Shown: piece by piece, positions 1 through 62,177 of the stretch
Position numbering within the stretch: the first letter of the stretch is position 1
Layout: each line of letters opens with the position of its first letter
Assembly (NCBI GenBank): GCA_036873135.1
Contig: JAPTYO010000015.1
Coordinates: 4,858,839-4,922,838 of the forward strand
Direction: 5' to 3'
Length of the DNA stretch: 64,000 nucleotides
Origin: Clarkia xantiana subsp. parviflora
Taxonomy: Eukaryota; Streptophyta; Magnoliopsida; Myrtales; Onagraceae
Made by a program: the position numbers and the translations under genes
The notes under the pieces: generated by a model
Seen by the model: the letters and a program-made list of their open reading frames with translations, nothing else
What the model was told of the DNA's origin: nothing
Databases searched by the model: none

Positions 1-422
1 AAGCATTCCACAGGCGAATGGCATGCGGAGAGAAGGTGGTCGGATGAGTTTTGTAATGCTGGCACATCTCGACCAGATTGCCACAAAAACGGAATCTGAT
101 CCCCGCTGATACTTGCCCCGTAGAGACAAATACCTCCCCTTTTCGGGGACGAGTAACCTCAAGGTTACCCGAGGGGCGAGGCCAGGGATACGGGAAACGA
201 GGTTCCCAAGTAGAAGTGATGCACCCCTCTCGGAGAGCTGCATCATAAGCGGTGTTGGAGGTTTCATTCAGAGCATAATCAAAGTTGAAGGGCTTTCTCC
301 CCTCAGAGCTGGATCCACTGTCTGAAAAGTAGCAATGGCAAGGAAGGCACAGTGGGATTTTCGGAAAGCTGCAAACAAGGAAAAGATGAACAAGCAACGA
401 AGAAGAAATCCTTACCAGACAT
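1..422 (-). CDS. Tat-1 antisense gene, 5' exons (partial)
   Basis: This is the start of the conserved antisense gene of Tat elements, cut by the window edge. The first coding exon is 422-416 (ATGTCTG), followed by a predicted intron at 415-322 (GTAAGG...TTTTCAG, 94 bp). Exon 2 runs from 321 to the window edge without a stop in the spliced frame. It carries the motifs GRKPFNFDYA, AYDAALREGC, TRPRKGEVFVSTGQ and FCGNLVEMC shared with Tat-2 and Tat-3. Without splicing the frame ends at 303, so the intron is needed. The family resembles the plant 'putative gypsy type transposon' domain (Pfam PF04195, from memory). Its molecular function is unknown. Expression is inferred only from the splice sites and the upstream TATA box. 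Confidence 0.6.
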
Positions 423-8200: not shown

Positions 8201-9163
8201 TCCTTGACGAAGCTCAGAGTCCTTGCTGCCACTTTTGAAAACAAATGCTGATGCTGCACTAGTAAAGGAATTTGTGCCTGATGCTTTCGTTATGGTAGCA
8301 GGATTCAAGTTCTCCTTTTCATTCCCTCTCTGATGAAAAGGATTTCCCTCACTGTTGCCTTTAAACACAAAAATACCATCATCATGATGCCTACTTGAAC
8401 TTGAGTTTTCATTGATGTAGGAGTTTAGAATAGGATTAGTAGCCTTTACTTTCTGAGTCTCTGCTGTTGTGTTATTATCACCGACACTCAGGTTTCCAAA
8501 CTGTTTACAGAACTCCGTCGTTCCGAAGTTAAATTTTGATGAGAGATGAACCTGACTGGAACCAAAGACAAAACTTGAACTAGCCCGCTTCTCCAGTTCA
8601 GGTTTGTCATCAGTTCCCCCGTTATTACAACCATCTGAACTCAACCTCTTATATTCAGCTGTGGAATGCTCTTCTTTCCCTAGCACCTCATCAACAGAAC
8701 CTAAATTTTCCGCATTTCCAGCAACCCTCTCCCCTTTCAGAGGAATCAATTGTTCAGTCTTCTCAAACTCTGAGTAAGCATTTACATTTCTATCATCTGT
8801 TCCTGAGGCTCCATGAAAAGCACCAAACGCAAAATTACCATTCTTGTCAAAGGAACTGCGATCCCCGACTGACGTATAATTACTATTACCTACAAATCTA
8901 CCACTCTTTAAAGACCCGGGATTAGCAGTGCTGCCAAATGTGGTTTGATCAGAAGCGTCAGGAATAGAAGAAAATTGATTAGAATTGGAATCGAGTCGAC
9001 CCCTTGACGCGGTCCCAGAACCTAAGTGCCTCCTCACCTTAAAAAACCTCGGGCGTGACAGCCGCGAAGATGCTAATCCATTTACCTCGGGATTTCCATC
9101 GGAAGAAACGCTGCCGTGAGTACCGGTTGTGAAGGAAAAAGATGAGGTTTCAGCCGCCGGCAT
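2210..9163 (-). CDS. TPR and J-domain (DnaJ) co-chaperone-like protein, 11 exons
   Basis: Coding exons by GT-AG sites: 9163-6681, 6611-6354, 5770-5641, 5446-5300, 5159-4921, 4778-4712, 4261-4055, 3444-3215, 2827-2749, 2648-2505, 2395-2210. They sum to 4170 nt (1389 aa plus stop) with matching phases at every junction. Residues 1-827 are low-complexity, rich in Ser/Asn, with scattered FxFG/FxFS motifs (FVFGSS, FTFGCS, FTFSSG). From about 830 to 1240 there are TPR repeats (AAGNEAF-type helices, NRAAS, AIADCSLAI). The J domain follows at about 1250-1328 with the HPD motif near 1278, then a basic Ser/Tyr/Arg-rich tail. The arrangement matches plant TPR-DnaJ proteins such as Arabidopsis AT5G12430 and AT2G41520 (family knowledge). 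J domains stimulate Hsp70 ATPase, and TPRs often dock Hsp70/Hsp90 tails. The exon 4 start could shift by one codon (CTAG or GCAG acceptor). Confidence 0.9.
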
Positions 9164-9297
9164 CGGAGTCGAGGGCGTCCTCCCGATGGGTGAAGAAATC
9201 TGCGACTAAGGAGGGTAGGGTTTTGGTTGATTTGGAAGAAGAAGGTGAGTCGTGAGAAGTAGTAACCAAGCGTGCGTGACAGTGACACAGTGCTGTG

Positions 9298-10251: not shown

Positions 10252-10893
10252 TGATGGATTTCGATATAGCCGTTAGGCCCATTAACGACGACTAAACGGC
10301 GAAGTAGGCCCACTGGGCCCTAAAAGAGGATTAGAAGACCAATACGATAGGACCCGACAAGGTCGGTCCCGACATACGAGCTGAACGCTCCCGATGATAT
10401 GCCTTTGAGTAGGCCCCGATGATATGCCTTTGAGTAGGCCCCGATATTAAATCCCTGAGAAGACTGGCCCTGTCCCGATGACGAGGGGCCCCGAGCGGTG
10501 ACCAAAGGAGATAACTCTGGAGTCCCTGATATCCGTCGGGACTTGCCACCAGAGAACGAGGCCGGGAAACACGCCCACTATCGACATAGTGGGGAAGTGG
10601 CCTGAAAAGACGGAACGTGGGCAAGTGGCCGAGATAAACGGAACGTGGGCTAACTGCCCTCACAGTTATCGCAACAGGTAACTGGGGTAACTCCTCCCCT
10701 ATATAAAGGAAGGGGTTACCTCAGGATTGACGTTCATACTGATACTTGATAGCCTACATCGAGATACTCATTTAAGCATCGGAGAGGGATTCTGGGTCAC
10801 CGCCCGGTCTATCCCCTTCTTGCAGGATTACTTGGAGCGAAGGAGTTCAGACTTCCGTCAAGAACGTACCGGAGTTCCAACCGTGATCCAACA
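10252..10893 (+). repeat. Tat-2 5' LTR
   Basis: The LTR is 642 bp, TGATGG...CCAACA. The TATA box TATATAAA is at 10700-10707. It contains two copies of a 25-bp unit (GATGATATGCCTTTGAGTAG core, about 10393-10442) where the 3' LTR has three. Confidence 0.93.
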
Positions 10894-13269: not shown

Positions 13270-13929
13270 TGATGGGTTTCGCTATAGCCGTTAGGCCCTT
13301 TAACGATGAGTAAACGGTGAATAGGCCCACTGGGCCCTAAAAGGGGTCAAGAAGACCAATGCGAAGGGTCCCGACAAGATGGGTCCCGATGGTGAAGGGT
13401 CCCGACAAGGTCGGTCCCGATATGCGAGCTGGACGCTCCCGATGATATTCCTTTAAGTAGGCCCCGATATTGAATCCCTAAGAACGATTGGCCCTGTCAC
13501 GATGACGAGGGGCCCCGAGCGGTGACCTAATGAGATAACTCTGGAGTCCCCGATATTGGTCGGGACTTGCTATCAGAGGTTGAGGCCGAGAAACACGCCC
13601 ACTATCAGAGTAGTGGGGGAGTGGCCCGAGATAAGCGGAACGTGGGCAAGTGGCCGAGATAAGCGGAACGTGGGCTAACTGCCCTGGCAGTTCATCAGGT
13701 AACTGGGGTAACTCCTCTCCTATATAAAGGAGGAAGTTACCTCAGATCACATATACGCACTTACATACTGATACTTTTGCTTGCCTTGCCTGCCACGAGA
13801 TTCTCATTTAAGCATCGGAGAGGGATTCTGGGTCACCGCCCGGTCTATTCCCTTCTTGCAAGATTACGTGGAGCGAAGGATTTTGGATTCCCGTCAAGAC
13901 CGTATCGGAGTTCTAACCCTGATCCAACA
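13270..13929 (+). repeat. Tat-3 5' LTR
   Basis: The LTR starts TGATGGG and ends CCAACA, with a TATA box TATATAAA at 13721-13728. It is followed directly by the primer-binding site TTGGCGCCGTCTGTGGG at 13930. Confidence 0.95.
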
Positions 13930-13984
13930 TTGGCGCCGTCTGTGGGAAGCTAACAAAAAGTCAAAGATAGCTTCTACTCGTTCA

Positions 13985-15550
13985 ATGGCGGCTGGCAAGC
14001 AGAAAAAGCAAGGGCAGACTGGTGGTTCTAACATCCCTGCTGGAACTCAGAATTCAGAGCTTCCGGAGCGCAGTGTGGATCAAAATCTCCCTGCTGAGGT
14101 TTCCCGAACAGGGGGGCATAATGAAGTTCCTGAGGATACTGCTCGACACCAAGAGAATAGGGAGGAGGATGCTCCTCCAAACGCGGACCTGACGAAGGCT
14201 GTGGCGGATGCCATGCCGATGTTCTTGGAGGCCATGGAGGCTCTCCTAGAGCGGAGAGAGGCTGCCAAGAAGAAGGAGGAGGTGCCTCCGCCTCCGCCGA
14301 GGGAGATTCGGAATGTGCAGGAGGCCCAACCCAGAAACCGGGACAAGGGCAAGGAGCCCGCTCAGTCGGAGCGATTTGTGATCGATGAGCCTGGACCGGT
14401 GCAGCATAGGACCATTCCCCTTAATGGTCCCATCACCCCTGACCAGGTGGTGAAGATCGTGAACATCTGCATGGGGGACCAGAAGCAGATGATGTCGGAG
14501 CTGAGGGATCGATCCACCCATCCCTTTGTTCCCCGATTGATAGACACCCTCGCCCCGCCAGGGCTGGGTATCCCCACAATTAAGGAGTATGAGGGCGAGG
14601 GAGATCCAGTTCGCCATGTCCAGAAGCATGTCATGGCCTGTCTGGGCAGAGCCCCGGATGATGATACTGTGTGTGTGTTGTTCCCGGCCACATTGGGAGA
14701 AAGGGCCCTGACGTGGTTCTTCAGCCTGCCCCCAGGGTGCATCTCCAGCTGGGCTGATATGCACGATCGTTTTATTCAGCAGTACCAAGGTCGTCGGCGC
14801 CTCTTGAAGAGCGTGAGGTCCCTGACCCAGGTGGTGCAGAGGCCCGACAAATCGCTGGCGCATTATTACCAGCGGTACACTGCTAGTGTGGCCGAGATCG
14901 ATGAGGAGATATCGGAGGGAGAGACTATCCGCACCTTCCTTCGGAACCTAACAGCCCCCTATGGTTCCGACCTGATGCACAGCGTGGCCGCGAAGGCCGT
15001 GTGGAGTATGGAGGCGTTGCAGACGAGGGTAAAGCAGCAAATCGATGTGCAGGAGTCGAAGATAGCTGCCGGAGAGCAAGATCCTCCGAAGTCAAATAAG
15101 GGGAAGCAGTCGTTCAAACCATTGGACGACCGTAAGTAGAAGGATAAATCCGAGGGCAGTCGGAGTCGAGGCTGCTCTGATCGAAGGGAGGACATGCGTC
15201 CCCCGAGGAAGGACAAGCAGGAGGATCATCACATTCCTCTCAATAGTTCTATAGCTGCCTTGTTAACGGTGATGGATCGACAGGGTATCTCCAGGTACCC
15301 CCCGAAGAAGGAAGGAGAATTTTTGGGAGCTCGCATCGATCGTTACTGTCGGTTCCACCGCGCCAGCAGTCACGACACTAACCATTGTCGGGAGTTGAAG
15401 AAGGAGATCGAAAAGCTGATCCAGAAGGGGAAGCTTAAGGAGTTTGTGGCTGGGAGGCGGAGTCGATCCCGCTCCCGATCTCGATCGCGGTCCCGTTCCC
15501 GATCCCGCGATCGGTCCCCAAAGAAGAAGTCCGAGTCGGAGTCTTCTGGT
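13985..15550 (+). pseudogene. Tat-3 gag
   Basis: Where Tat-2 has its gag ATG, Tat-3 has ATA (13967-13969), so the first in-frame Met is six codons later at 13985. The frame runs through an acidic/proline-rich N-terminus and the capsid-like core to TAG at 15137-15139. It continues in the same frame through a CCHC-like motif (CRFHRASSHDTNHC, about 15345-15390) and a long Arg/Ser alternating stretch near 15460-15520. The boundary to protease at about 15550 is approximate, because gag and pol share one frame. The Arg/Ser run may bind RNA (inference). Confidence 0.85.
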
Positions 15551-17215
15551 GTCCGTAAGGAGAAGCGGGGCACCATTAATGTGATTCATGGAGGATTGGC
15601 TGCAGGAGGTGATACCACAGCCTCTCGGGAGGTCTATGCCTCTAGAATTTCCGCTGCTGTGGTGCTGGGCAAGAGGTCCCGATCCTGGACCGCGAAGGAA
15701 GAGATGGTGATTTCCTTTTCAGCGGAGGACCTGGTAGGTGTGGAGACTCCGCACGATGATGCTTTGGTCGTGACCCTGGACGTGGATGGGTACGAGATGA
15801 AGCGAATTTTGATCGACGGAGGGAGCTTTTCTGATATTCTGTTTATGGATGCGCTGGAGGCCATGGGGAAAACGAAGAAGGACCTGAGGCAGGTGAACTT
15901 CCCGATGGTTGGATTCTCTGGTTCTACCTCCTATCCGCTGGGAATGATCACCTTACCAGTGGAGTTCGATAGTGGGTGGAAAGCGGAGAGGAGGAATGTG
16001 GAGTTCGTGGTGGTTGAGTCCGCGGGGACCTATAATGCGATTATCGGGAGAACTACCATCAACCCGCTGATGGCAGTTGCCTCGACTGTTCACCAAAAGA
16101 TGAAGTTCCCGACTGACCACGGAGTCGGGGAGGTCAAGGGCGACCAGGTGGCTTCCAGGAAGTGCTATGTTAATGCCACCCAAAGGAGAAGACGGGAGGC
16201 TATGACTATCCTCCAGACCGATGCTGATCCCAGAGAGGAGTTTGGGCGTCCCGCCTCTATGGAGGATTTGAAGGAGGTCGAGATTGACGGACCACAGAGG
16301 AAGGTGAAAATCGGGTCCGCTCTGTCTGACGAGAGGGCCCGAGAATTGATTGAGCTGCTGAAGGAGTTCAAGGAGCTGTTTGCCTGGTTCCCGAGTGACA
16401 TGCCAGGAATCAGCCCCGATGTGATTGTGCATGAGTTGAAGATTGATCCCGCGATCAAGCCTATCGCGCAGAAAAGGCGTCCGATGAGCGCAGACAAGAG
16501 GATCGCGATCCAGCAGGAGGTGGGCAGGTTGCTCGATGCTGGATTTATCAAGGAGCTCCGATTCCAGACTTGGGTCGCCAACCCGGTTCTGGTGAAGAAG
16601 AGCAATGGGAAATGGCGGATGTGTGTTGATTTCCGCGACTTGAATAAGGCTTGCCCGAAGGATTGTTACCCGCTTCCGAGGATCGACCAGTTGGTGGATG
16701 CCACGTCGGGGCATGAATTGCTGAGCTTCATGGATGCTTACTCTGGCTATAATCAGATCAAGATGGCTAAGGAGGATGCCCCTCACGCTGCCTTTTATGC
16801 TGATAGTGACATCTATCACTACGATGTCATGCCCTTTGGATTGATTAATGCCGGGGCAACTTATCAAAGGATGGTGAACAAGCTGTTTGGGGACATGCTG
16901 GGGAAAACCATGGAGTCTTACGTGGACGATATGCTGGTAAAGTCCCGACAGGCCGAAGATCATGTAAGCAACTTGGCGGTGGCATTTGAGCGGATGAGGC
17001 TTCATCAAGTTCGTTTGAACCCAGTTAAGTGCACCTTTGGAGTGCACTCGGGGAAGTTTTTGGGCTTTATGGTAAGCCAAAGGGGAATTGAGGTGAACCC
17101 CGAGAAGCTGAGGGCAATCGAGGAGATGCAGTCTCCGACAAATCATCGGGAGGTGCAAGTGCTGAATGGCCGACTAGCTGCAATGAATCGCTTCCTATCT
17201 AAGGCAAGCGACTGA
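15551..17215 (+). pseudogene. Tat-3 protease and reverse transcriptase
   Basis: The protease carries ILIDGGSFSDILF; the second Ser after the catalytic DGG is changed to Phe against Tat-2. RT follows from about 16380 with the fingers/palm motifs QTWVANPVLVKKSNGKWR, VDFRDLNKACPKDCYPLPRID and MPFGLINAGATYQRM. The catalytic YVDD is at 16919-16930. A TGA at 17213-17215 replaces the CGA found in Tat-2 and ends the frame at the RT connection; the same frame continues after it. RT copies the element RNA into DNA. Confidence 0.9.
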
Positions 17216-17743
17216 TCCATGCCATTTTTAGAAGTGCTGAGGGCCAACAAGAAATTTGAGTGGACTGCCATGTGTGAAGAGGCATTCCAGGCACTCAAGC
17301 AGCACCTTCGCACCCTCCCACCATTGGCGAAACCGATTCCAGGCGAGCCGCTCTATCTATATTTGGATGTTTCTGAGTTTGCTATTAGCTCTGTGTTAGT
17401 GAAGATTGTCGAGGGTAACCAAGTCCCCGTTTATTATGTAAGCAAGGCGTTTGCCAAATCTGAAATGAATTATCCCGCCGTTGAGAAGTATCTTTTTGCG
17501 TTGATCATTACTGCTCGGAAGCTGAGGCCTTACTTCCATACGCATGAGATTACTGTGTTGACGAATAAGCCTTTGAAGCATTTTTTGAACCGACCTGATG
17601 CGTCGGGGAGATTAGTGAAATGGGCAGTCGAGCTTAGTGAGTTCCGCATTCACTTTTCTCCAAGAACGGCTATTAAAGGTCAGGCGTTGGCGGATTTCAT
17701 AGCAGAGTCTACAGCCCCGATCTGGAAGAAGCGGGTCCTATAG
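17216..17743 (+). pseudogene. Tat-3 gypsy-type RNase H (degenerate active site)
   Basis: This continues the RT frame (FEWTAMCEEAFQALKQHL, YLYLDVSEFAISSVLV, YYVSKAFAKSEMNYPAVEK). The usual TDH motif reads LTNKPLKHF, so the third acidic residue is Asn, and it is also Asn in Tat-2. A one-base deletion in a C run near 17720 shifts the frame and ends it at 17743. Loss of acidic residues in this domain fits Tat elements that gained a second RNase H. Confidence 0.85.
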
Positions 17744-17754
17744 AGGGGGCAACC

Positions 17755-19567
17755 ATGGAGGTCCCGATAGCAGAGCAACCAGAAATGGCAGAGCAATCAG
17801 AACAGCCAAATGAGGAAAATACTTGGGAAATGTACACTGATGGCTCTTCGAGTTCAGACGGATCAGGAGCAGGGTTCGTATTGATACCACCTGGCGGAGG
17901 CGAGCCCCTTCGATATGCTTTGGCCTTAATGTTTAGGGCCACCAACAATGAAGCTGAGTATGAGGCTCTTATCACAGGCCTCAAAATTGCCAAAGGTACG
18001 GGAGTTGGTCACTTAAGGGTGAAATGTGACGCTAGCCTGATTGTGAATCAAGTCCAAGGACGATATGAGGCAAAGAGCCCGGTGATGAGAAAGTACCTTC
18101 GTGAGGTGCAAGTCTTGAAGGAGAGTTTCAAAAGTTTCGATATTGAGGCAATCCCGAGGGAGGAAAACGCGGAAGCGGATGCCTTGAGCAAATTTGCCTT
18201 GAGCAAATTTGCCTTGGGGGCACCCCTCGAGGAAAATCGGAAGGTGCACTTCTTGGAGAAGGTGATCTTGTCGACCACCGATCCATCAGAGGTGTGTTCC
18301 ATTGAAGCAGGATCGGAGGAGGAGCCAACTTGGATGACCCCGATAGCCGCGTACCTGACCACGGGGGCAGTCCCCGATGATGAAGTAGTAGCTGACAGGA
18401 TACGTCGGATCGCGGTTAATTACATGGTGGTGGACAATCAGCTATACAAAAAGGGGTGGTTCTCAACTCCTTACTTGAAATGTGTGGCTGAGCCCGACGC
18501 AAATCGGATCCTTAGGGAGGTGCACGAAGGGGTCGCGGCTAGTCACGAAGGTGCCCGATCCATTGAGAGGAAAGTGCCGAATTTGGGCTATTACTGGCCT
18601 TCAATGAGCAAGGAGGCGACGATGTTAGTCCGATCTTGTGACGTGTGCCAGAGGTATGCCCCGAATATCGTGGCTCCGGCTGCTAATCTGACGTCCATCA
18701 AGAGTGCTTGGCCCTTCGCGCAGTGGGGTATCGACTTGGTGGGACCCCTCCCACAAGCAAAAGGTCAGTGCAAATATTTGCTTGTAGCCATTGATTATTT
18801 CTCAAAATGGATAGAAGCTAAGGCATTGGCCAAGACAACGGGGAACCAAATCGTCAAGTTTCTACAGACCCATATTATATCCAGATACGGGATTCCTAAG
18901 GTGTTGATCAGCGATAATGGTCCTCCGTTTAACGGGGCTCAAGTGAAGGAGTATCTGGAGGAGCTGAATATCGAGCATCGGACAGCCTCTGTCCATCATG
19001 CTCAAACTAATGGACAGGTGGAGTCAGCCAACAAAATCGTGATGGATGGCCTGAAGAAAAGGGTCTATGCCTTGAAGGGCAAATGGCTGAACGAGCTGGA
19101 AAATGTGCTTTGGGCTGTTAGAACGACACCCAAACGATCAACTGGGGAGAGTCCGTTTGGTCTTGTTTATGGCACGGAGGCAGTTGCTCCCGTGGAAATA
19201 GCTGTGGCGTCCCATCAGATGAGGTACTACGAGCCTTTGAACGAATGATGAAATGAGACGTCTGGAATTGGACTTGCTCGAGGAAAAGAGGCGGGATGTC
19301 GATGAAGTCCAGGCTCGAATGCGTTTGGCGACGGCCAGATATTACAATCGGCGAGTTAAGTCCCGACAGTTCTTTGTCGGAGAACTGGTTTGGCGTCGGA
19401 ACGAGTTCACCCTTTTGGATCGGATCAACAAGATGTCGCCAAAATGGGAAGGACCTTATAAGGTCGTGGGGATGCCAGCTCCAAATGCGTATAAGTTGGA
19501 AGACCTCGATGGCAAAGTATTGAGGCATTCTTTCAGTGGTGAACACTTGAAGAAATGTCATGTTTGA
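17755..19567 (+). pseudogene. Tat-3 second (archaeal-like) RNase H and integrase
   Basis: The RNase H domain starts MYTDGSSSSDGSGAG and keeps four acidic positions (TDGS, NNEAEYEAL, VKCDAS, EADALSKFA). An 18-bp tandem copy repeats LSKFA. Integrase follows: an HHCC zinc finger (HEG...HEGARS...CDVCQRYA, about 18510-18660), the DDE core (GIDLVGPL, LISDNGPPFNG, TNGQVESANK) and a C-terminal part after a frameshift at about 19240 that ends at 19567 (SFSGEHLKKCHV). No chromodomain is seen. Integrase inserts the cDNA and makes the 5-bp target duplications seen here. Confidence 0.9.
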
Positions 19568-20075
19568 TATTAAGTCGCCTTTAGTGGTGCAAGTTGTTAT
19601 TAAGTCGCCTTCAGTGGTGCACGATGTTATTAAGTCGCCTTTAGTGGTGCAAGTTGTTATTAAGTCGCCTTCAGTGGTGCACGATGTTATTAAGTCGCCT
19701 TAAGTGGTGCAAGTTATCTATCGTTTGATTCGATGTAAGCAGAGTTTGAGCCATCAATGAATAAAGAGGTTGCTTCCGATCAGATTGTTCTTAGATTTAT
19801 TCTAAGTGTTGTTAAGTCTCCTTAAGTGGTGCAAGTAAATAGCCTTAAGTGGCAAAGTCGCATTAAGTGGTGCGTGGTTCTTAGATTTATTCTAAGTGTG
19901 GCTAAGTCGCCTTAGATGGTGCGAATTGAATTGCCTTAGTTGGCACGATTAAATCGCCTTAAGTGGTGTGGGCTAAATCGTCTTAAGTGATGTGTTGAAA
20001 TGTCTTAGGTGACATGCTAAATCGCCTTAGGTGGCATAGTTAAGTCGCTTTAAGAAGTGCAACGATAAATCGGAA
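19566..20075 (+). repeat. Tandem repeat spacer between pol and the antisense gene (Tat-3)
   Basis: Five near-perfect 30-bp units (core TTAAGTCGCCTTCAGTGG) lie at about 19567-19716. Two variants alternate (CAAGTTG and CACGATG), giving a 60-bp higher-order unit. Degenerate copies built on CGCCTTAAGTGG continue to about 20075. No reading frame is conserved. Confidence 0.85.
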
Positions 20076-20163
20076 CTAAAATAGTTTGATATTTGTGAGG
20101 GCTCAAAGGCCCGAGGATTCATTACAAAGAGAGAAAAATTACAAGGACTATAAAGATAGAGCA

Positions 20164-22988
20164 TTAAGCTTGGTCCTCGTCAGCATCGGCGGAAGCAGGA
20201 TCCACGAGATCTGTGGCAGAAGGCTCCACAAGATCGGACCCTTGGAGGTCAGTCGGTGAAGGTTCAATTGCTGGAGGGTCGATTATCGGGGGATCAACTG
20301 TCGGGAGATCGGCACTAGGTAGCTCCGCCACGTCTTCAACACCCGCGGGGGTGTTTCCCTCATCACTCTCCTCCGAGAGGTCGAAATACCTCTTCGCAAA
20401 GGGGGCGAGAGTCGCAGACTTATCGAAATTAATGGCGTTGCCATACTCCAGATGGAGCTCCTCGACCGTGTTGAAGAGGGTGTTCTCCACCTCCGTGGTG
20501 CAGAATTTCACCGCGTCCGCTTGGAAGTCCTCAGAGCCCCGATAATCTTCCCGACCCTTGGTTTCAGCCTCGGCCAGCTTGGCAGGGACCTCAGCAATTT
20601 CCCGCTCCAGCCCCGCCTTGGCGTCTTCCAGAGCCTTCTTCTCGAGGACAAGTCTGTCCCGAGCCTCCGCATCCATTTTCCGCTCCTGCTGCTCCCGCTT
20701 CGGCAGCCCCTCGAAGTCTTGAACCTGCTTTTGGAGGTCCCGATTCTTTCGATTAAGGAGGGCCTGCTCCTTAGCCAATTTTCCCCTCGAAGACTCGGAG
20801 GCGGCGAGATCCTCCTCGAGCTTGGCTACAACCGCGGGAGCCCCCTTGGCCCGCTCCTGCTCCAGCGCCTCCTCGAGGGCCAGGATGTATTTGAAGCAGC
20901 GGTTTATGTCCGCCATCTCCTGCGAAGAAAAGAGGAAAAGGTTAGCACATGAATATCCTACCTTATCGATTAAAGGGTGAAAATAGGAACCTTACCTCCA
21001 GCCGACGAATGGCCATTCCACGGATATCCGCGTGGATGTCCTCCCGAGCCAGAGAGAGCGGAAGCTTCAGAGACGGCAGAACCGAGCCTGCCACCAAATG
21101 CAGACCCAGCTCCGGGTATGTATCACCCTGTCGGAGCTGGACTCCTTGCAGCGTCTGGATCGGGGTCCAGGGAGCCGCCTCCTGGTCGGGGTCGTAGACC
21201 TTGTAGAAGCTCCCGTCCAAGGGGAGAGGAGGAGGACCGACCGGAGTCGTGGAGGTTCGTATCTCCGAGTCGCCCTGGGACCCAGAGGGAGTCAAGCTGT
21301 GAATGGGTGAGTGCTGCTGCGAAGGAGATGAGGGGGGCAGCCCCCTGGAGGTTGGCTTCAGTGGGGACTGCCTCGTCCCCCGACGACGAACCAAGGCGAG
21401 GCCCTCACCTGTCTCATCGGAGGAGTCCAGATCTTCCACCTGACGAAACTGATCGCCTGTCGGGGTTTCTTCAGCCCTCGATCCCATCGGGGCAGGAAGT
21501 TGAGGGAGACCCTCTCCAACTTGAGCACCGAAAGGTGGTGCCCCTGCTGAAGCTCCAGCCCCCGACTGAGTTCCCGATTGACCTGCACCTGGAGGATGAG
21601 ATGCTTCAGAAAGATAGTCAGGAAGTTGGTCAGGATCCTTACACCAAATGACGCGCCGGGAGAGGTATTGGTCTTTCCCGTGGTAGTTGTAGTAACCCTC
21701 TTTGAGGATGCGGGGAGTTTCTCCTCCGAGGATGCGTATGATCTCTCTGATTCTGGCTTCCTTGCTGGAGGGGATTAACTCCTTAGGAATTTGCTTCCTG
21801 TACGACTTAATAGCTAGGCGGACCTGTTTACCTTCTTCGGCATTTTGGACATTGAAGAGCCTGTCCATCTCCTCTACTCGGGTCCGCTTAGTCCTCTCCG
21901 CGGAGGGAGATGCCGACGAAGCGGTGGCCTTCTTTGCCGACTTCCTCTTCCGCGCGGGGCGCTGGACAGCGTCGGTCTCTCCCTGCTTAAGGAGGAGATT
22001 GGTCAGCAGTGATACCTTCTTAGCTGCAAACAATGGAAAACAGAGACATGATCAGAAATATTACCCAAGGAACCATATTGGAGGGGCCATCGTGGAGTTG
22101 ACCTCCGGAGATCGTATCGAGGAGGCGGATCCCGGCATCCACCAGGTCCCGCTCCTTGAGGGAGTTAGCGTCGAGGGGAGTGTAAGATTCCCCCCAACGG
22201 TAAAGCTGGATGCAGTGAAGGATTTGGAAATCTTCATCGGAATAGGTGTGATAAGCGGGAGGAGAGTCCGCTTCAACCTCCCATCGGGGACATGGGATAG
22301 AACTGTTCTTAATGAAGAAGTAGTTCCTCTTCCACCCGCTGTTGTCGGACCCTGTGTCAGTGAGGAGCCCCCGACCCCTGACAACCTTCCAGGTGTCGCT
22401 GGTCCAACTACACCGCGCAAGCTGCTGCTTATTCCATTTAGGCATCCGAGGATAGAAGGCGCAAACCCCAGCCTCGTTGCACTTCATTCCGTAGAAGGTC
22501 CGGAAGAGTTGGAGGCTGTAGACCCACTTTTGTCGGAAACAGAGGACTTGAAAAGCATTCCACACGCGGATGGCGTGGGGGGAGAAGGTAGTCGGATGCG
22601 TCTTGTAATGGGCGCACATCTCGACCAAATTCCCACAAAAGGGGAATCGGATCCCTGCCGATATTTGTCCGGTGGAGACAAATACCTCCCCTTCCTCGGG
22701 ACGAGTGACCATAGGGTCGCTCGAGGCACGGTAGCGAGAGTAAGGAAGGCAGGGCTCCCAGGTTAAGGTGACGCATCCTTCTTGGAGAGCTGCAACATAG
22801 GTAGTCACCGATTTCATTGGGTGCGTAATCGAAGTTGAAGGGTTTTCTCCCCTCAGAACAGGATCCGCTGTCTGAAAATTAGCCATGGCAAGAAAAGGCG
22901 TGGTGGGTTTTCGGAAAAATGCAAGCAAACTGATCAAAGACAAGGGAAAAGCTACGCTAACATCAGAGAAGGAAGTCTTACCAGACAT
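20164..22988 (-). pseudogene. Tat-3 antisense gene, four exons, one 2-bp deletion
   Basis: Predicted exons: 22988-22982, 22871-22065, 21982-20996, 20919-20164. Introns begin GTAAGA, GTAATA and GTAAGG, end TTTTCAG, TTAAGCAG and TTCGCAG, and are 110, 82 and 76 bp. Exons 3 and 4 are whole codons. Exons 1+2 are 2 nt short because of a deletion near 22805; corrected length equals Tat-2 exactly (816 nt). The product would be about 853 aa. Its N-terminal third resembles plant PF04195-type proteins (RFPFCGNLVEMC, AIRVWNAFQVLCFRQ, CAFYPRMPKW). The middle is Pro/Ser-rich and starts with a basic patch (RPARKRKSAKK). The end is a long coiled coil (about 20380-20916) with an acidic tail. Function unknown; probably nuclear given the basic patch (inference). 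Confidence 0.7.
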
Positions 22989-23148
22989 GATGAATCGGAG
23001 CGAAAAGGATGATCTTAACGGTCGCCAGAAGACTGATCGGAAAACAGGAAGCTGAAGAAGAACTTGAGCTTTCGAAGTTGCAGAGCTTTTGAAATTGCAG
23101 AGAGTGAAACGGTAAAAGAGAAAGAAGAACAGTGCCCAGAATTGAGGG

Positions 23149-23156
23149 TTTTATAG
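23149..23156 (-). promoter_or_regulatory. Antisense TATA box of Tat-3
   Basis: CTATAAAA on the minus strand lies 161 bp before the antisense ATG at 22988. Position and sequence are conserved with Tat-1 and Tat-2. Confidence 0.6.
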
Positions 23157-23524
23157 GAGAAGGGATAGTCGAAAGGACATTCTAATCTGGACCGTTGAAG
23201 GTGAAACGTTTCAATCCGAGTCGTTGAGATAAAAGGGGGCAGAACGGAAATAGACGTTAATGATGAAACGACCTGAAAAGTGCTTTTTCAGAAAAAGCAG
23301 ACACGAGAACCCAAGCCGTCGCTTCCTTACCCACTGCATTTAATGGACGAGTAACCGAAGAGTCTTCTCGGATTTGGAAACTATCCCCGAGGTATCGAGG
23401 AATCGTGGACGAGAAGATCCGTGTTAATAAATTTTGTCAAGGGAAAAGCCTACGATACCGATATCGGGAGGTCGGGAGTTGAAAGACACGACGAACTGTA
23501 AGTCCCTCATGTCTTGGGGGCAAA

Positions 23525-24184
23525 TGATGGGTTTCGCTATAGCCTTTAGGCCCTTTAACGATGAGTAAACGGTGAATAGGCCCACTGGGCCCTAAAAGGG
23601 GTCAAGAAGACCAATGCGAAGGGTCCCGACAAGATGGGTCCCGATGGTGAAGGGTCCCGACAAGGTCGGTCCCGATATGCGAGCTGGACGCTCCCGATGA
23701 TATGCCTTTAAGTAGGCCCCGATATTGAATCCCTAAGAACGATTGGCCCTGTCACGATGACGAGGGGCCCCGAGCGGTGACCTAATGAGATAACTCTGGA
23801 GTCCCCGATATTGGTCGGGACTTGCTATCAGAGGTTGAGGCCGAGAAACACGCCCACTATCAGAGTAGTGGGGAAGTGGCTCGAGATAAGCGGAACGTGG
23901 GCAAGTGGCCGAGATAAGCGGAACGTGGGCTAACTGCCCTGGCAGTTCATCAGGTAACTGGGGTAACTCCTCTCTTATATAAAGGAGGAAGTTACCTCAG
24001 ATCACATATACGCACTTACATACTGATACTTTTGCTTGCCTTGCCTGCCACGAGATTCTCATTTAAGCATCGGAGAGGGATTCTGGGTCACCGCCCGGTC
24101 TATTCCCTTCTTGCAGGATTACGTGGAGCGAAGGATTTCGGATTCCCGTCAAGACCGTACCGTAGTTCCAACCGTGATCCAACA
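23525..24184 (+). repeat. Tat-3 3' LTR
   Basis: The 660-bp LTR is preceded by the polypurine-like CTTGGGGGCAAA. It differs from the 5' LTR at about eleven positions, including the T/G change in the GATATTCC/GATATGCC block. Confidence 0.95.
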
Positions 24185-25398: not shown

Positions 25399-26266
25399 TT
25401 GTCACCGCTCGGAAGCTGAGACCTTACTTCCATGCGCATGAGATTACCGTTTTGACGAATCAGCCCTTGAAACATTTTTTGAACCGACCTGACGCGTCGG
25501 GGAGATTAGTGAAGTGGGCAGTCAAGCTTAGTGAGTTCCGCATTCACTTTGCTCCGAGAACGACTATTAAAGGCCAGGCATTGGCGGATTTCATAGCAGA
25601 GTCTACAGCCCCCGATCTGGAAGAAGCGGGCCCTGTAGAGGGGGCAACTATGGATGTTCCGATAACAGAGCAGTCAGAACAGCCCAACGCAGAAAATACT
25701 TGGGAGATGTATACCGATGGCTCCTCAAATTCAAAAGGATCGGGAGCAGGTTTGTACTGATACCACCAGACGGAGGCGAGCCCCTCCAATATGCCTTGGC
25801 CTTGACATTTAGGGCCACCAACAATGAAGCTGAATATGAGGCTCTCATCGTTGGCCTCAAGATTGCTAAAGGAACAGGAGTTGGTCACTTAAAGGTGAAG
25901 TGTGATGCTAGCCTGATCATGAACCAAGTCCAGGGGCGATACGAAGCAAAAAGCCCGATGATGAAAAAGTATCTTCGCGAGGTACAAACCCTGAAGGAGA
26001 GTTTCAAGAGCTTCGATATTGAGGCAATCCCGAGGGAGGATAATGTGGAAGCAGATGCCTTGAGCAAATTCTCCTTGGGGGCACCCCTCGATGAAAGTCG
26101 AAAGGTGTACTTCTTTGAGAAGGTGATCTTGTCAACCACCGACCAATCGGAGGTATGTGCCATCGAGATCGGATCGGAGGAGCCCACTTGGATGACCCCG
26201 ATAGTCGCGTACCTGACTACGGGGGCAGTCCCCGATGATGAGGTAGAAGCCGACAGATTACGCTGA
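25395..26266 (+). pseudogene. Tat-2 RNase H domains
   Basis: The first part (25395-25760) is the end of the gypsy-type RNase H (VLTNQPLKHFL) and the start of the archaeal-like RNase H (MYTDGSSNSKGSGAG). A one-base deletion at about 25752 moves the frame, and the domain continues from there to 26266 (NNEAEYEALIVGLK, VKCDASLI, EADALSKFS). The frame ends at TGA 26264-26266, where Tat-3 encodes Arg. Confidence 0.85.
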
Positions 26267-27420: not shown

Positions 27421-27945
27421 TATTAAGTCGCCTTCAGTGGTGCAAGTTGTTTATCGAAGTCGCCTTAAGTGGTGCAAGTTGTTTATCAAAGTCGCCTTCA
27501 GTGGTGCAAGTTGTTTATCAATGTCGCCTTCAGTGGTGCAAGTTGTTTATTGTTTTAATTTGACGTAAACAGGCTTTGGGCCATCAATGAATAAAGAGGT
27601 TGCTTCCGACCAGATTGTGCTTAGACTTATCATTCTAAGTATGCTTAAATCGCCTTAAGTGGCGTGGATAAATCGCCTTAAGTGGTGTGATTAAATCGCC
27701 TTAAGTGGCGTGGTTTCGCCTTAGGTGGCGTGGTTTTTGCCTTAAGTGGCGTGGTTTCGCCTTAAGCGGCACGATTAAATCGCCTTAAGTGGCGTGGTTT
27801 CGCCTTAAGTGGCACGATTAATTCGCCTTAAGTGGTGTGGGTAAAATGTCTTAAGTGACGCGTCGAAATCACTCTTAAGTGGTATGATCGAATCGCCTTA
27901 AGTGGCGTGGTTAATTCACCTTAAGTGGTGCAGCGATAATCGGAA
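27421..27945 (+). repeat. Tandem repeat spacer between pol and the antisense gene (Tat-2)
   Basis: About four 32-bp units (core GTCGCCTTCAGTGGTGCAAG) are followed by 20-27 bp units built on CGCCTTAAGTGGCGTGG up to about 27945. It occupies the same place as the Tat-3 array but has a different period and copy number. Confidence 0.82.
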
Positions 27946-28174
27946 CCAAAAGAGATTGATATTATAAAGATCTAAAAGGTTCACGACAAACGAAAGAAAT
28001 TACAAGGATTTGAAAATAAAGCAACTAAGCTTGATCCTTGGCAGCGTCGAGGGGAGCAGGGTCCACGAGGTCTGTGGCAGAAGGCTCCGCGGTCGGAGGA
28101 TCGGACCCTGGAAGATTGGCCGCGGGAGGATCAGACTCTGGGAAGTTTGCCGGTGAATGGTTGATCATCGGGGG

Positions 28175-30951
28175 CTAAGTTGTCGGGAGTTCTGCACTTG
28201 GAGGCTCCACCGTACCTTCAGCACCCGCAGCTCCCTCGGGGGTGTTGGCCCCGTCGCTCTCCTCAGAAAGGTTGAAATACCTCTCCGCGAAGGGGGCGAG
28301 GGTCTGAGACTTGGTGAAATCGATGGCACCACCATACTCCAGATGGAGCTCCTCGACAGCATTAAGCAAGGTGGTCTCCACCTCCGCCGTACAGAACTTC
28401 ACCGCGTCCACTTGGAAAGCCTCGGAGCCCCGATAATCTTCCCGACCCTTGGCCTCAGCTTCAGCCAGCTTGGCGGGGAACTCGGCAATCTCCCGCTCCA
28501 TCTGTTGGGATCGATTGGTGAGAAGGACCTTCTCAGCCTCCAGCCCCGCCTTGGCGTCCTCAAGGGCCTTCTTCTCGAGGACAAGCCTGTCCCGATCCTC
28601 CGCGCGCCCCTGCTGCTCCTCATTGAGCCTTTGGCGCTCCTGCTTCAGCAACCTCTCAAAGTCGTGGACCTGCCTCAGGAGGTCCCGAGTCTTCTGGTTA
28701 AGGAGGGCCTGCTCCTTAACCAACTTACCCCTCAACGATTCGGAGGCAGCCAGATCCTCCTTGAGCTTGGCCTGGACCTCGGGGGCCGCCTTGGCTCGCT
28801 CCTCCTTCAGGGCCTCCTCCAGGGCCAGGATGTACCCGAAACAGCGGTGCTGGTCCACCATTTCCTGTGGAAAAGAATGGAAGGTTAGTACATGAGAATA
28901 TCTTACATTATATACTAAGTGTAAAAATAGGATGCTTTACCTCCACACGGCAAACGGCCATAGCGCGAATGTCCGCGTGGATGACCTCCTGATCCAAGGA
29001 GAGTGGAACCTTCACAGACGACGGAACTGAACCTGCCAGCAGGTGCAGACCCAGTTCCGCTGATACATTGTCCCGACGCAGCGGGACCCCCCGCAATGAC
29101 TCGATCGGGGTCCAGGGAGCCGCCGCCTGGTCGGGGGTGTAAACCTGATAAAAACTCCCGTCCAAGGGGAGAGGAGGAATGAAGGACTGGATGTCGGAGG
29201 TGCGTGCCTCCGAGCCACCGTGAGAACCCGTCGTCCCTTCAGGAGTCAGGCTCAGGACCGGCGAATGCTGTTGTGCCGGGGAAGATGGAGGCAGACCTTC
29301 GAGTGTCGGCTCCAACGGGGTCCGCCTCACCCCCCAACGGCGAACCAGGGGCTGACCCTCGCTTGCCTCCTCAGAAGAGTGAGAAACATCCAGGTCCATC
29401 ACCCGACGGAACTGGTTGTCCGTCGGGGCGTCTTCAATCCCCGATCCTCCGGGGGCAGGAAGAGAAAGGAGGGGCTCCCCGACCCGTGCGTCGGAGGGAG
29501 GCTCCCCCGCCGAAGCTCCAGCTCCCGATCGACCTGCAGCTGGATGACGAGAAGCTTCAGAGGGAAAATCAGGAAGTTGATCGGGATCCTTACACCAAAT
29601 GACGTGACGGGAGAGATACTGGTCCTTCCCGTAGTAATTGTAGTAACCCGCTTTAAGAACGCGGGGTGTCTGTCCTTGCAGGATGCGGTTGATCCCTTCG
29701 ATCCTGACTCTCTTATCGGAGGGGATTAACTCCTTGGGGATACGCCTCTTGTATATTCGAATTGCTAAGCGGAGCTGTTTACCTTCTTCGGGAGTCTTGG
29801 TGTTGAAGATCTGCTCCATCTTTTCCACCCGGGCCCGCTTGATCTGCTCCGAAGTTGGATGTGCTGATGAGGAGGCGGCCCTCTTCGAAGACTTCCTCTT
29901 CCTCGCGGGGCGTTGGACAGCATCGGTCTCCACCTGCTTAAGCACGAGATTTGTCAGCAATGATACCTTCTTAGCTGCAAAGACGAAAACGAAAGTACAA
30001 TTAGAATATTACCCAAGGAATGAGGTTGGAAGGGCCATCGAAGAGTTGACCCCCGGAGGCGACATCAAGGAGTCGGATCCCAATCAGAACCAGGTCCCGC
30101 TCCCCGATGGAGTTGGCATCGAGGGGAGCGAAAGAGTCCCCCCAACGATAAAGTTGGATGCTGTGGAGAATCTGGAAATCCTCCTCGGAGTAAGTGTGAA
30201 AAGCGGGAGCAGGGTCCGCTTCAACCTCCCATCGGGGCCACGGAATAGAGCTGTTCCGGATGAAGAAGTAATTCTTCTTCCAGCTGCTGTTGTCGGGCCC
30301 CGAGTCAGTGATGAGCCCCCGACCTTTGGCGACTTTCCAGGTGTCACCATTCCAGCTGTACCGAGAGAGCTGTGCCTTGCTCCATTTAGGCATCCGCGGG
30401 TAGAAGGCACAGACCCCGGCATCATTGCATTTCATTCCGTAGAAGGTCCGGAAAAGTCGGAGGCTGTAGGTCCACTGTTGGCGAAGGCAGAGAATAAGGA
30501 AGGCATTCCACACACAGATGGCGTGGGGGGAAAAAGTAGTCGGATGTATTTTGTAATATTCACAAATCTCGACTAAATTCCCGCAGAAGGGGAATCAGAT
30601 CCCTGCCGATATTTGCCCGGTGGAGACAAATACCTCCCCTTCCCGGGGACGAGTGACCACAAGGTCACTCGGGACGCGAGGCCAAGGAAAAGGGAAGCGA
30701 GGCTCCCAGGTGGAAGTAATACACCCCTCCCGGAGAGCTGCATCATAGGCGGTTTCAGAAATCTCATTACAAGCATAATCGAACTTGAAGGGCTTCCTCC
30801 CCCCGGAACTGGATTCACCGTCTGGAAAATGATCAGAGCAAGAAAAGGCACAGTTGATTTCCGCAAAAGTTCGGGTAAGTTAAAGGAGATAAAAGGAAAA
30901 ACTATGCTAACAAGTTTCTTCGGAATCGAAGGAGGAAATCTTACCAGACAT
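28175..30951 (-). pseudogene. Tat-2 antisense gene, four exons, one nonsense change
   Basis: Predicted exons: 30951-30945, 30821-30013, 29933-28941, 28864-28175. Introns are 123, 79 and 76 bp with GTAAGA...TTTCCAG, GTAATA...TTAAGCAG and GTAAAG...CCACAG. Exons 1+2 total 816 nt and exon 3 993 nt, so the frame holds throughout. One TGA at 30597-30595 replaces the CGA of Tat-3, and a TAA at 28175-28177 ends the protein before the acidic tail seen in Tat-3. Domains as in Tat-3: N-terminal PF04195-like region (AYDAALREGC, TRPREGEVFVSTGQ, CVWNAFLILCLRQQW), a basic patch (RPARKRKSSKR), a Pro/Ser/Gly-rich middle and a C-terminal coiled coil (about 28370-28861). Function unknown. Confidence 0.7.
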
Positions 30952-31096: not shown

Positions 31097-31104
31097 TTTT
31101 ATAG
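31097..31104 (-). promoter_or_regulatory. Antisense TATA box of Tat-2
   Basis: CTATAAAA on the minus strand lies 146 bp before the antisense ATG at 30951. It is conserved with Tat-1 and Tat-3. Confidence 0.58.
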
Positions 31105-31366
31105 GAGAGAGGATAGCCAAAGAGACGTTGCAATCCGGACCGTTGAAGATGAAACGCTTCGTTGAGGCACTAGCGACAAAATAGCTAAAAAGTGCTTTTT
31201 CAGAAAAGCAGGCACGGGCACCCAAGCCGTCGCTTCATCACCCATCGCATTTAATAGTTAAGTAATCGAGAAATCTTTTCGGATTCGGTGGTTATCCTCG
31301 GAATATCGAGAGGGTCGGAGTTGGAAGACACGACGAACTATAAGTCCCTCATGTCTTGGGGGCAAA

Positions 31367-32042
31367 TGATGTGTTTCCATATAGCCGTTAGGCCCATTAA
31401 CGAAGACTAAACGGCGAAGTAGGCCCACTGGGCCCTAAAAGAGGATTAGAAGATCAATACGATAGGACCCGACAAGGTCGGTCCCGACATACGAGCTGAA
31501 CACTCCCGATGATATGCCTTTGAGTAGGCCCCGATGATATGCCTTTGAGTAGGCCCCGATGATATGCCTTTGAGTAGGCCCCGATATTAAATCCCTGAGA
31601 AGACTGGCCCTGTCCCGATGACGAGGGGCCCCGAGCGGTGACCAAAGGAGATAACTCTGGAGTCCTCGATATCCGTCGGGACTTGCCACCAGAGAACGAG
31701 GCCGGGAAACAAACCCACTATCGACATAGTGAGGAAGTGGCCTGAAAAGACGGAACGTGGGCAAGTGGCCGAGATAAACGGAACGTGGGCTAACTGCCCC
31801 CAGCAGTTATCGCAACAGGTAACTGGGGTAACTCCTCCCCTATATAAAGGAAGGGGTTACCTCATGATTGACGTACATACTTAAATACTGATACTTGCTA
31901 TCCTACATCGAGATACTCATTTAAGCATCGGAGAGGGATTATGGGTCACCGCCCGGTCTATCCCCTTCTTGCAGGATTACTTGGAGCGAAGGAGTTCAGA
32001 CTTCCGTCAAGAACGTACCGGAGTTCCAACCGTGATCCAACA
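31367..32042 (+). repeat. Tat-2 3' LTR
   Basis: The LTR is 676 bp, TGATGTG...CCAACA, with a TATA box at 31841-31848. It is longer than the 5' LTR mainly because the 25-bp GATGATATGCCTTTGAGTAG unit occurs three times in a row (about 31506-31580). Confidence 0.93.
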
Positions 32043-33846: not shown

Positions 33847-33851
33847 GTAAG

Positions 33852-34499
33852 TGTTGGATCTTTTCCGGGTGGAGTGTCGGATCCTAGTAATGACGTTGGA
33901 AGAATGCCTCGGGTCGCTCAATCTTCGGGTCTTCGCACGTGTCGGGCTCGCGCGTCTCCGTATACCTGTAAGAGGGGCAATAGCGCACACCACGTAGGGG
34001 GTGGAGTGCGATGAACCCTCTCCGAAGCTTCAATCAGATATTTTAGAGAGAGAAAGTAGAGAGAGGGCAGAGCTTCCGATGTCAACTTAGTTCGAAATGA
34101 ATGATCAAGGCTCCTATTTATAGGAAACCTTGGAATCAAACCGGGTTTTGAACGGTCCGACGTCGGTTCAATGCAAAGTATGAACCGAGCGTAGACGGGA
34201 GTAAAGCTGACATCGGGAGGGTTTGCACGTGCAGTGTTTACGTAGGGGTTTACATGTCAATAATAGGAGGAATTCGGACCGTCCTGGAGTATCGCACGGA
34301 TCCCGGGAGGTCCGGGGTGATGGGACAATCCGGACCGGGTCCGGATTGTCCTGCAATCCGGACGCGTCACAAGTCCGGGGCACGTACCCCGGACCTTTTA
34401 GTACCTGCGGGTGAATAATTCGAAACCGTTTAGTGGGTTTGACGTGTATACGAAGTTCGAATAATATAAAACGAACCTGAATCAGACGTATACCCATTA
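33852..34499 (-). repeat. Tat-4 3' LTR
   Basis: The 648-bp LTR on the minus strand starts TAATGGGTATAC, where the 5' LTR has TGATGGG, and ends GATCCAACA. The TATA-like CTATAAATAG is at 34114-34123. It is clearly homologous to 57852-58501, with small indels around the CCGGACC repeats. Confidence 0.93.
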
Positions 34500-50066: not shown

Positions 50067-50296
50067 TATAAGCTGGAAATTTACTTCATTGATCATTAGG
50101 GATTACAATCAAGGTGATACAATATATATACTAAGTGAAACTAGGCTCACCAACTAAGACTATACAAATAGTTGTGAACCAGATGCATAGTGTTTGCATA
50201 GCAAAACCGGGTGCATACATAGTGGCAGGGTGTATGCATAGTGAAACTAAGTGTATGCATAGTGTATTGAACATAGTCTTCATATACACTTCTATA
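50067..50296 (-). repeat. Cop-2 3' LTR
   Basis: The 230-bp LTR starts TATAGAAGTG on the minus strand and ends GCTTATA. The polyprotein stop codon TAG lies in its first bases. It contains imperfect repeats of a TATGCATACAC motif. Confidence 0.93.
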
Positions 50297-54629: not shown

Positions 54630-55347
54630 CTTGCAATTCAGAAACTGGATTCAAACAGGGGAGAGGAATTCAAGGAATATAATCAGCAGATTTCCAAGAA
54701 AACCGAAAATGAACCAGCTACCACAAAGTGACAAAAGTGGCACACAACCAAACTTGCAATAGGACAAAGAATCAGCTAGCAATATCCAACTGAATTCGTA
54801 CAGATCCGCCCACAAATCTGAGTAAACCAATCAATAGAAGCCACCAACAATCAAATCTGAACAATCTCCAATGATTGTGGAAGCAGAAATCCACAATCTC
54901 AATGCAAAATTCTTCAGTAAACTGAAAGAACACCTTAGTCGAGCAATGAACTATCAAAGCTCAAAACGCAGAGAAACAATGGAGATCAAGCTATAAGCAC
55001 AGCTTAATAGTGAAATATGTTCACTATAATAACCAGGAATCAAGTGCAAACCCAAGAATTCAACAAGAGAATCCACGCAAATAGCAATCCATAGCTCAAT
55101 CCAGGAAGAACTAGGCAAATCAGCTTGAAGACTAGTTCAAATCACCAAAAAGATTCCTACGCAGCTCAGATCTTGAAATGAGACTTACCCAAAGCCTTTC
55201 TTAAGTAAAAGAAAGGTTAATACAAGCTGAATTGAGTAACCAAGAAGTAATCCAAGCTGAATCCAAGTTGAATCAATGGAAAATCACAAGTAGAAATGAA
55301 GAAGAACTAGGTTGCTTCATCTCCAAGTTTGCGCCGCCATTTACATA
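54630..55347 (-). other. Cop-2 untranslated leader
   Basis: The sequence between the primer site and the gag ATG is about 720 bp. No conserved frame or structure was recognised in it. Confidence 0.6.
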
Positions 55348-55359
55348 GCTCTGATACCA
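55348..55359 (-). other. Primer-binding site of Cop-2
   Basis: TGGTATCAGAGC on the minus strand is complementary to the 3' end of plant initiator tRNA-Met, the standard copia primer. It directly abuts the 5' LTR end TTATA. Confidence 0.92.
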
Positions 55360-55589
55360 TATAAGCAGGAAATTTACTTCATTGATCACTAGGAATTACA
55401 ATCAAAGTGATACAATATATATACTAAGTGAAACTAGGCTCACCAACTAAGACTATACAAATAGTTGTGAACCAGGTGCATAGTGTTTGCATAGCAAAAC
55501 CGGGTGCATACATAGTGGCAGGGTGTATGCATAGTGAAACTAAGTGTATGCATAGTGTATTGAACATAGTCTTCATATACACTTCTATA
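55360..55589 (-). repeat. Cop-2 5' LTR
   Basis: The LTR is 230 bp with TATAG...TTATA ends and about five differences from the 3' LTR. A TATATATA tract at about 55419-55426 may serve as its core promoter. Confidence 0.93.
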
Positions 55590-55594
55590 CTACC

Positions 55595-58972: not shown

Positions 58973-62177
<3,205 letters not shown>

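Follow-up and report, generated by a model that had tools for sequence, protein, structure and literature searches.

The gene described here, carried on the antisense strand of nested retrotransposons in a 64,000-nucleotide (nt) stretch of the Clarkia xantiana subsp. parviflora genome (contig JAPTYO010000015.1, positions 4,858,839 to 4,922,838; hereafter the window), resembles gene23 of the maize element Grande. The two share an antisense orientation and a position between pol and the 3′ long terminal repeat (LTR), a likeness drawn from published description and not from sequence (PMC7264820). An upstream promoter of its own, ubiquitous antisense transcription and a nuclear protein have been reported for gene23; the portions of that account that were accessible mention no intron in the gene and call for a search for spliced antisense transcripts (PMC7264820). 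Among the titles and abstracts listed, none describes introns in this gene; splicing of gene23 may already be known and may be described in the primary paper (Gomez-Orte 2013). In Retand elements, antisense open reading frames (ORFs) encoding the TRP28 domain lie in the pol-3′ LTR region, as here; 97% of the recently active clusters of Retand carry them, and DNA binding is predicted for their products, whose function is not known (Vicient 2025, PMC11963269). The word intron is absent from the main text of that survey as far as it was accessible. The survey used an ORF finder and reported separate ORFs of at least 600 bp, whereas we read such ORFs as exons of one gene (PMC11963269). Plant LTR elements are generally without introns, Ogre and EVADE being among the exceptions (2025 review, PMC12786077), and the introns of these two lie within gag-pol and affect its expression, in contrast to introns in an antisense gene (PMC6317226, PMC12786077). 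Outside plants, HBZ of human T-cell leukemia virus type 1 is also an antisense retroelement gene with alternatively spliced transcripts and isoforms; its transcripts begin in the 3′ LTR, unlike the internal TATA box found here, and the likeness considered is one of organization (PMC1459196).

In the window, an inner element (13270-24184) sits within an outer one (10252-32042), and the window start truncates a third; these are the Tat-3, Tat-2 and Tat-1, respectively, of an earlier sequence-only reading. We consider it likely that all three carry a spliced accessory gene of the Tat/Retand type, located between pol and the 3′ LTR, probably with its own promoter and probably giving two splice forms from one ATG. 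Conservation of the exon-intron layout, selection on the coding frame and matched splice phases, as seen in aligned genomic copies, point to this gene. New here are the two acceptors of intron 2 and the stretch between them, which evolves like coding DNA in the frame supplied by exon 1.

The inner copy of the gene occupies 20164-22988 on the minus strand, from ATGTCTG at 22988 to a stop at 20164, and the outer copy 28025-30951 (Table 1). The sequence-only reading had placed the gene antisense to pol. Its orientation was right, but the gene lies downstream of pol, before the 3′ LTR and with no overlap (the integrase ORF ends at 19248); the long minus-strand ORFs occupy this interval, which measures about 4.3 kb in the inner element. 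Tandem arrays at 19564-19715 and 27425-27928, with units of about 22 to 84 nt containing TCGCCTT, separate pol from the antisense gene in both elements, and tandem repeats have been reported in about half of Retand clusters (PMC11963269). The start ATGTCTG with donor GTAAG and the acceptor TTTTCAG or TTTCCAG were recovered in all three elements, with intron 1 lengths of 94, 123 and 110 nt (Tat-1, Tat-2 and Tat-3), and so were the 79/82-nt intron 2, ending in CTTAAGCAG, and the 76/76-nt intron 3 of Tat-2/Tat-3. Exons 1 and 2 together measure 816 nt in the outer and, owing to a 2-nt deletion, 814 nt in the inner element, the length being 816 nt in 15 of the 21 copies of the inner subfamily. A TATA box (CCTATAAAA in the inner element) precedes the ATG by 153-169 nt and belongs to the internal region, not to the LTR. 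It is exact in 20/20, 20/21 and 18/21 copies of the T1, T2 and T3 subfamilies defined below. It is predicted to act as the gene's own promoter, which the gene probably has, and an antisense RNA polymerase II transcript starting near it is likely to be spliced.

By its encoded domain we identify the gene as the antisense TRP28 gene (Transposase_28, PF04195) already described from Retand/Tat elements. PF04195 was matched by 21 of 21 exon-2 proteins at E≤0.01 (best 2.9e-11). The three T proteins with scores shown reached 17.9, 18.7 and 19.6 bits, under the Pfam cut-off of 26.2, and T proteins align over the whole TRP28 domain with families whose matches pass it. The exon-2 alignment contains 16 invariant columns. 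At its start, exon 3 encodes basic stretches (RKRKSAKK, for instance), and the sequence encoded by exon 4 is charged and, by eye, heptad-like; neither gave a Pfam match in the one copy tested, and a public protein set searched with exons 2 and 3 yielded no relatives. Several TRP28 matches lie close together on one contig (C12, about 626-955 kb, at 626434, 636615, 703736, 935046, 944416 and 954576), perhaps as clustered element copies.

Both gene copies in the window are broken, the outer by in-frame stops in exons 2 and 4 and the inner by a frameshift in exon 2, and other copies were therefore needed for testing. From the same 695.6-Mb genome (7227, 8764 and 4069 first-look candidates) we aligned the 20 copies that scored best, next to those of the window itself, in each of three subfamilies, T1 (like the cut element), T2 (like the inner) and T3 (like the outer), with the two window copies, 62 in all; every copy was chosen for its likeness to the window copies. 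One T1 copy (L059) cannot be aligned with the gene in its 3′ part and was excluded from the composition, distance and gap counts, and another (L058) has a shortened spliced length; elsewhere both are among the 62.

The four-exon structure proposed in the sequence-only reading is shared by this alignment across the three subfamilies, though the sites would permit a second product besides it. The donors of introns 1, 2 and 3 are GT in 62, 62 and 61 copies, and the acceptors are AG in 60 (intron 1), 61 and 61 (the near and far acceptors of intron 2, a2a and a2b) and 59 (intron 3), so that in this check on genomic copies the splice dinucleotides were kept in 59-62 of 62 at every site. Copies of one subfamily are alike, so that conservation among them counts as weak evidence. 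The evidence is stronger between subfamilies, because introns 1 and 3 have diverged, differing in 70/124 and 50/79 columns. The introns are T-rich and gap-rich as well as diverged between subfamilies. Retention would bring an in-frame stop in 26, 62 and 44 of the copies for introns 1, 2 and 3, and the intron length is not a multiple of three in 43, 58 and 49.

Selection on the spliced frame was measured in the three T subfamilies, from at most 60 random copy pairs per comparison. The ratio of nonsynonymous to synonymous rates (dN/dS) between subfamilies over all exons was 0.21, 0.24 and 0.25, a sign of strong purifying selection, with 0.12-0.18 in exons 1 and 2, 0.28-0.30 in exon 3 and 0.27-0.32 in exon 4. 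The earlier claim of selection on a spliced antisense frame is borne out: for every exon and subfamily pair (0.12-0.32) the gene frame had the lowest ratio of the six frames. It also contains a mean of 2.1 stops per copy, against 9.5 to 37.8 in the five other frames over the same exon columns. Changes fixed between subfamilies were 85/192, 106/182 and 89/164 (nonsynonymous/synonymous) versus 1161/624 for private changes, with Fisher p values of 6e-27, 3e-19 and 3e-19 that serve as guides only, since the three subfamily pairs are not independent. Private changes had a dN/dS of 0.57-0.72, with stops arising at 0.53-0.83 of the synonymous rate. They thus look nearly neutral, and the constraint therefore acted while the elements were active. 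By the yardstick of pol in the two window elements (0.06 and 0.14), constraint on the antisense gene is weaker. Gaps between subfamilies were a multiple of three in 4803/6528 cases in exons and 432/3312 in introns; the counts come from pairs among 12 copies of each subfamily, and these pairs share events. The spliced frame is open from end to end in one of the 62 copies and to within about six codons of the end in one more.

The second acceptor of intron 2 was absent from the sequence-only reading. Donor 2 (TGG/GTAA, phase 0) is followed by a T-rich tract of 34-41 nt ending in TTTGCAG (a2a), and 41 nt further downstream by CTTAAGCAG (a2b); the frame of exon 2 is continued by a2b only. The a2a-a2b segment is 41 nt long in all 62 copies. 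It has a GC content of 0.41-0.53, which is exon-like, versus 0.31-0.34 before a2a, and the three subfamilies share the majority base in 33 of its 41 columns, against 54/124 in intron 1, 29/79 in intron 3 and 21/41 between donor 2 and a2a. Read with one carried nucleotide, the segment is open in 60 of the 62 copies, whereas the other two frames are stopped in 60 and 62. Exon 1, being 7 nt long, supplies exactly one carried nucleotide, and its junction to a2a would give a protein start, MSAKKVSLLTN..., that continues into the frame of exons 3 and 4. Two other ways of using these sites were rejected. Splicing of donor 2 to a2a would, given the 2 mod 3 spacing, throw exon 3 out of frame in all families read, the exon 3 frame of the divergent families introduced below being taken as the open frame after a2b, and its intron would be just 34-61 nt long. 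A phase-1 donor within exon 2, GGTCAAC, has no GT at that place in the T1 copies shown.

The same layout was found in more distant copies. From 150 scored TRP28 matches of 11371 candidates, 13 were picked for their open frames, not at random, and assigned to families A-E by DNA identity, except that L070, with no DNA match listed, was put in A by eye on its protein and a2a-a2b segment. When exon 2 is aligned, their proteins share 24-34% identity with the first T protein. All 13 have a phase-0 donor 2 and the two-acceptor layout, with a spacing of 32 nt in nine and 29 nt in four; like the 41 nt of the T copies, these lengths are 2 mod 3. Beyond a2b, the five long loci stay open in phase 0 for 51-122 codons, more than in either other phase, and in the eight short loci no stop interrupts phase 0 before the sequence ends. 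The long frame of A-E reads through from the ATG and does not need intron 1. Nevertheless, a start donor with a 1-nt carry lies at the ATG, namely ATGA/GTAAG in A, B and C, ATGC/GTAAGT in E and ATGGCTCTCCCCATTCCTGAAG/GTAAT in D. It is in phase 1 in all five families and intact in 11 of the 13 starts read (L069, L071, L072, L076, L077, L073, L074, L079, L081, L082 upstream of L078, and L084 upstream of L080). The predicted N-termini of the short protein are similar across groups (MSWFQY, MSWFHY, MSWFYG, MSWFHG, MSWFDG, MSLFDG, MRLFAD and ..EGLFTR). The ATGA/GTAAG of these families was excluded as the counterpart of intron 1 of T, the long ORF running straight through it. Intron 1, needed only in T, may be a gain, and intron number may vary among the families. 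By eye, the sequences of L069, L071 and L072 downstream of a2b suggest that A-C have extra donor/acceptor pairs in exon 3 that are not present in T.

Under the proposed mechanism, the long form would join exon 1 to the TRP28-encoding exon 2 and donor 2 to the far acceptor a2b, continuing through exons 3 and 4 to give a protein of about 800-880 amino acids with basic, nuclear-signal-like stretches. For the short form, the start-codon donor would splice to the nearer acceptor, a2a, so that the TRP28 exon is left out while exons 3 and 4 are shared; its protein would begin MSAKK, or MSWF, MRLF or MALPIPEGLF in other families. The two isoforms would arise by alternative splicing, as the arrangement of sites suggests. 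We lean, with less assurance than for the spliced gene itself, towards a two-product design older than the split of families now 24-34% identical, in which a donor within or beside the start codon decides whether the protein has TRP28 or lacks it, the tail being common to both, and the final 29-41 nt of the intron of one product serve as the first codons of the other. The products may form an antagonist pair or a switch, comparable to the HBZ isoforms or to transposase/repressor pairs. Their role would likely be a regulatory one in the nucleus, where the long form would bind DNA through TRP28 and the short form, without that domain, would compete with it or modulate it. More speculatively, with HBZ as the precedent for an alternatively spliced antisense regulator (PMC1459196), the long protein might act through TRP28 on the element's own DNA in the nucleus, with the short one tempering it. 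The introns would persist because they are not introns on the strand of the genomic RNA, judging from the strand of the splice sites.

Several observations weigh against a spliced gene with two products. Spliced genomic copies were searched for by exon 1-2, exon 1-a2a and exon 2-3 patterns of the T families with 1 or 2 mismatches, the exon 3-4 junction not being included, and gave 0, 1 and 0 matches; the single exon 1-a2a match has no other similarity to the gene and is unrelated. The short-form frame is stopped in 2 of the 62 T copies, and a2b and a2a are each lost in one. Among the 13 A-E copies, a2b is lost in one (L079, where the second AG is AC), the start donor is altered in two (GTGAA in L070 and GTACG in L083, upstream of L075) and the short-form frame is stopped in two (L072 and L073), whose relatives in the same group have no stop. 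The A-E segment is also open when donor 2 is joined to a2a (0 of 13 stopped), so that openness in A-E does not favor the short form, whereas spacing and phase do. Equal phases across families are not independent events, ancestry being shared, and the 13 copies were selected for open frames. Finally, one sense-strand frame has a dN/dS of 0.29-0.33 over all exons.

The strongest alternative, which we nevertheless regard as unlikely, is that the four-exon long protein is the only product and that the a2a-a2b segment is conserved for another reason, for example because it holds a branch point and an enhancer of splicing at a2b. The frame of the long form works both in T and in A-E, and most of the T copies shown have a CTGAC motif, which we take to be branch-point-like, some 20 nt ahead of a2b. 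Against this alternative stand the a2a-a2b length, which is 2 mod 3 in each of the six groups, the synonymous leucine codons TTG, TTA and CTA found at one site of the short N-terminus in families C, E and D, and a phase-matched start donor in every group. In A-E that donor lies within the coding sequence of the long form and is kept as GTAAG or GTAAT in 11 of 13, although the encoded amino acid differs (S, R or G). Two products are preferred over one because of this agreement of phase and spacing.

Less probable still are two separate proteins, with exon 2 alone encoding TRP28, exons 3 and 4 expressed through the short form only and the splice from donor 2 to a2b unused. If intron 2 were retained, the TRP28 protein of T1 and T3 would terminate a few codons later, with a stop in 62 of 62 copies overall, and it is as separate antisense ORFs that such genes appear in the 2025 survey, in the parts accessible (PMC11963269). 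Yet every family read has a phase-0 donor 2 that is in frame with a2b, and 74 of 75 copies place the two sites 75-90 nt apart (68 nt in L080; L079 is without the AG), whereas the distance from donor 2 to a2a is 34-61 nt. That the antisense ORFs are overlapping relics without functional splicing, their GT/AG pairs arising by chance in T-rich gaps, is very improbable. GT and AG are common, and the search of three T-family junctions found no spliced genomic copies, but the reading frame runs on without a break only where the proposed introns are removed, donor 2 is preserved at 24-34% protein identity, and the selection statistics also speak for splicing. Constraint from an overlapping sense-strand gene was ruled out with near certainty: sense ORFs of 209, 225 and 356 amino acids do overlap the gene, but the 356-amino-acid ORF has no Pfam match, the ratio of the gene frame is lower in every exon, and stop counts per copy in the three sense frames are 9.5, 26.4 and 30.0, of which 30.0 belongs to the low-ratio frame, against 2.1 in the gene frame; that sense frame is read as a mirror because of these stops and because its third positions coincide with those of the gene.

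Table 1. Positions of the nested elements and of the antisense gene in the window (exons, introns and TATA boxes as predicted).
Feature	Element	Position	Strand	Remark
5′ LTR	outer	10252..10893	+	92.5% identity to 31367-32042
5′ LTR	inner	13270..13929	+	98.3% identity to 23525-24184
pol	inner	15140..19248	+	reverse transcriptase, RNase H, second RNase H (RVT_3), integrase; Pfam
3′ LTR	inner	23525..24184	+	partner of 13270-13929
3′ LTR	outer	31367..32042	+	partner of 10252-10893
TATA box	inner	23149..23157	-	CCTATAAAA; internal region, ~370 nt from 3′ LTR
Exon 1	inner	22982..22988	-	ATGTCTG, 7 nt, ends in phase 1
Intron 1	inner	22872..22981	-	110 nt
Exon 2	inner	22065..22871	-	TRP28 / Transposase_28 (PF04195); 2-nt deletion
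Intron 2, long form	inner	21983..22064	-	donor 2 to acceptor a2b, 82 nt
a2a-a2b segment	inner	21983..22023	-	41 nt; long-form intron, proposed first codons of short form after exon 1
Exon 3	inner	20996..21982	-	basic RKRK stretch, proline-rich
Intron 3	inner	20920..20995	-	76 nt
Exon 4	inner	20164..20919	-	charged, heptad-like by eye; stop TAA
TATA box	outer	31097..31105	-	
Exon 1	outer	30945..30951	-	
Intron 1	outer	30822..30944	-	123 nt
Exon 2	outer	30013..30821	-	TRP28; one in-frame stop
Intron 2, long form	outer	29934..30012	-	79 nt; last 41 nt (29934-29974) are the a2a-a2b segment
Exon 3	outer	28941..29933	-	
Intron 3	outer	28865..28940	-	76 nt
Exon 4	outer	28025..28864	-	early stop near 28175
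Exon 1	cut	416..422	-	ATG at 422; TATA box 583-591, intron 1 322-415, exon 2 leaves window

The outer element is flanked by a perfect 5-bp target duplication (GATCC on both sides), and the inner one by GACTT/GACCT, with one mismatch. Pfam domains in the inner element follow the order RVT_1, RT_RNaseH and rve (reverse transcriptase, RNase H and integrase), and RVT_3 (PF13456) was found in 17677-19248 and 25571-26266. A second RNase H domain after the first is a mark of Tat/Ogre elements, and the set of pol domains fits the Tat/Retand group of Ty3/gypsy. So does the long interval between pol and the 3′ LTR with its tandem arrays, such an interval, frequently with repeats, being a feature of that lineage. 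Elsewhere in the window, the minus strand contains an 857-codon open frame (6632-9205) without a Pfam match at E≤0.001 and a FAD_binding_4 domain (61461-62177), perhaps in an exon of a host gene. Copia-type pol and gag domains lie on both strands at 49006-55892, where 230-nt repeats at 50067 and 55360 with 98% identity suggest one Copia element nested in another. Direct repeats at 33849-34497 and 57849-58499, 24 kb apart with 92% identity, could be the LTRs of one large interrupted element.

If the antisense gene is spliced and gives two products, the ORF-based gene models of antisense TRP28 would be fragments of it, and its introns would be a natural case of intron survival through retrotransposition. 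The model with two splice forms predicts the exact junction sequence for each family. For the element itself, it would mean the gain of a post-transcriptional switch, or of a regulated accessory gene.

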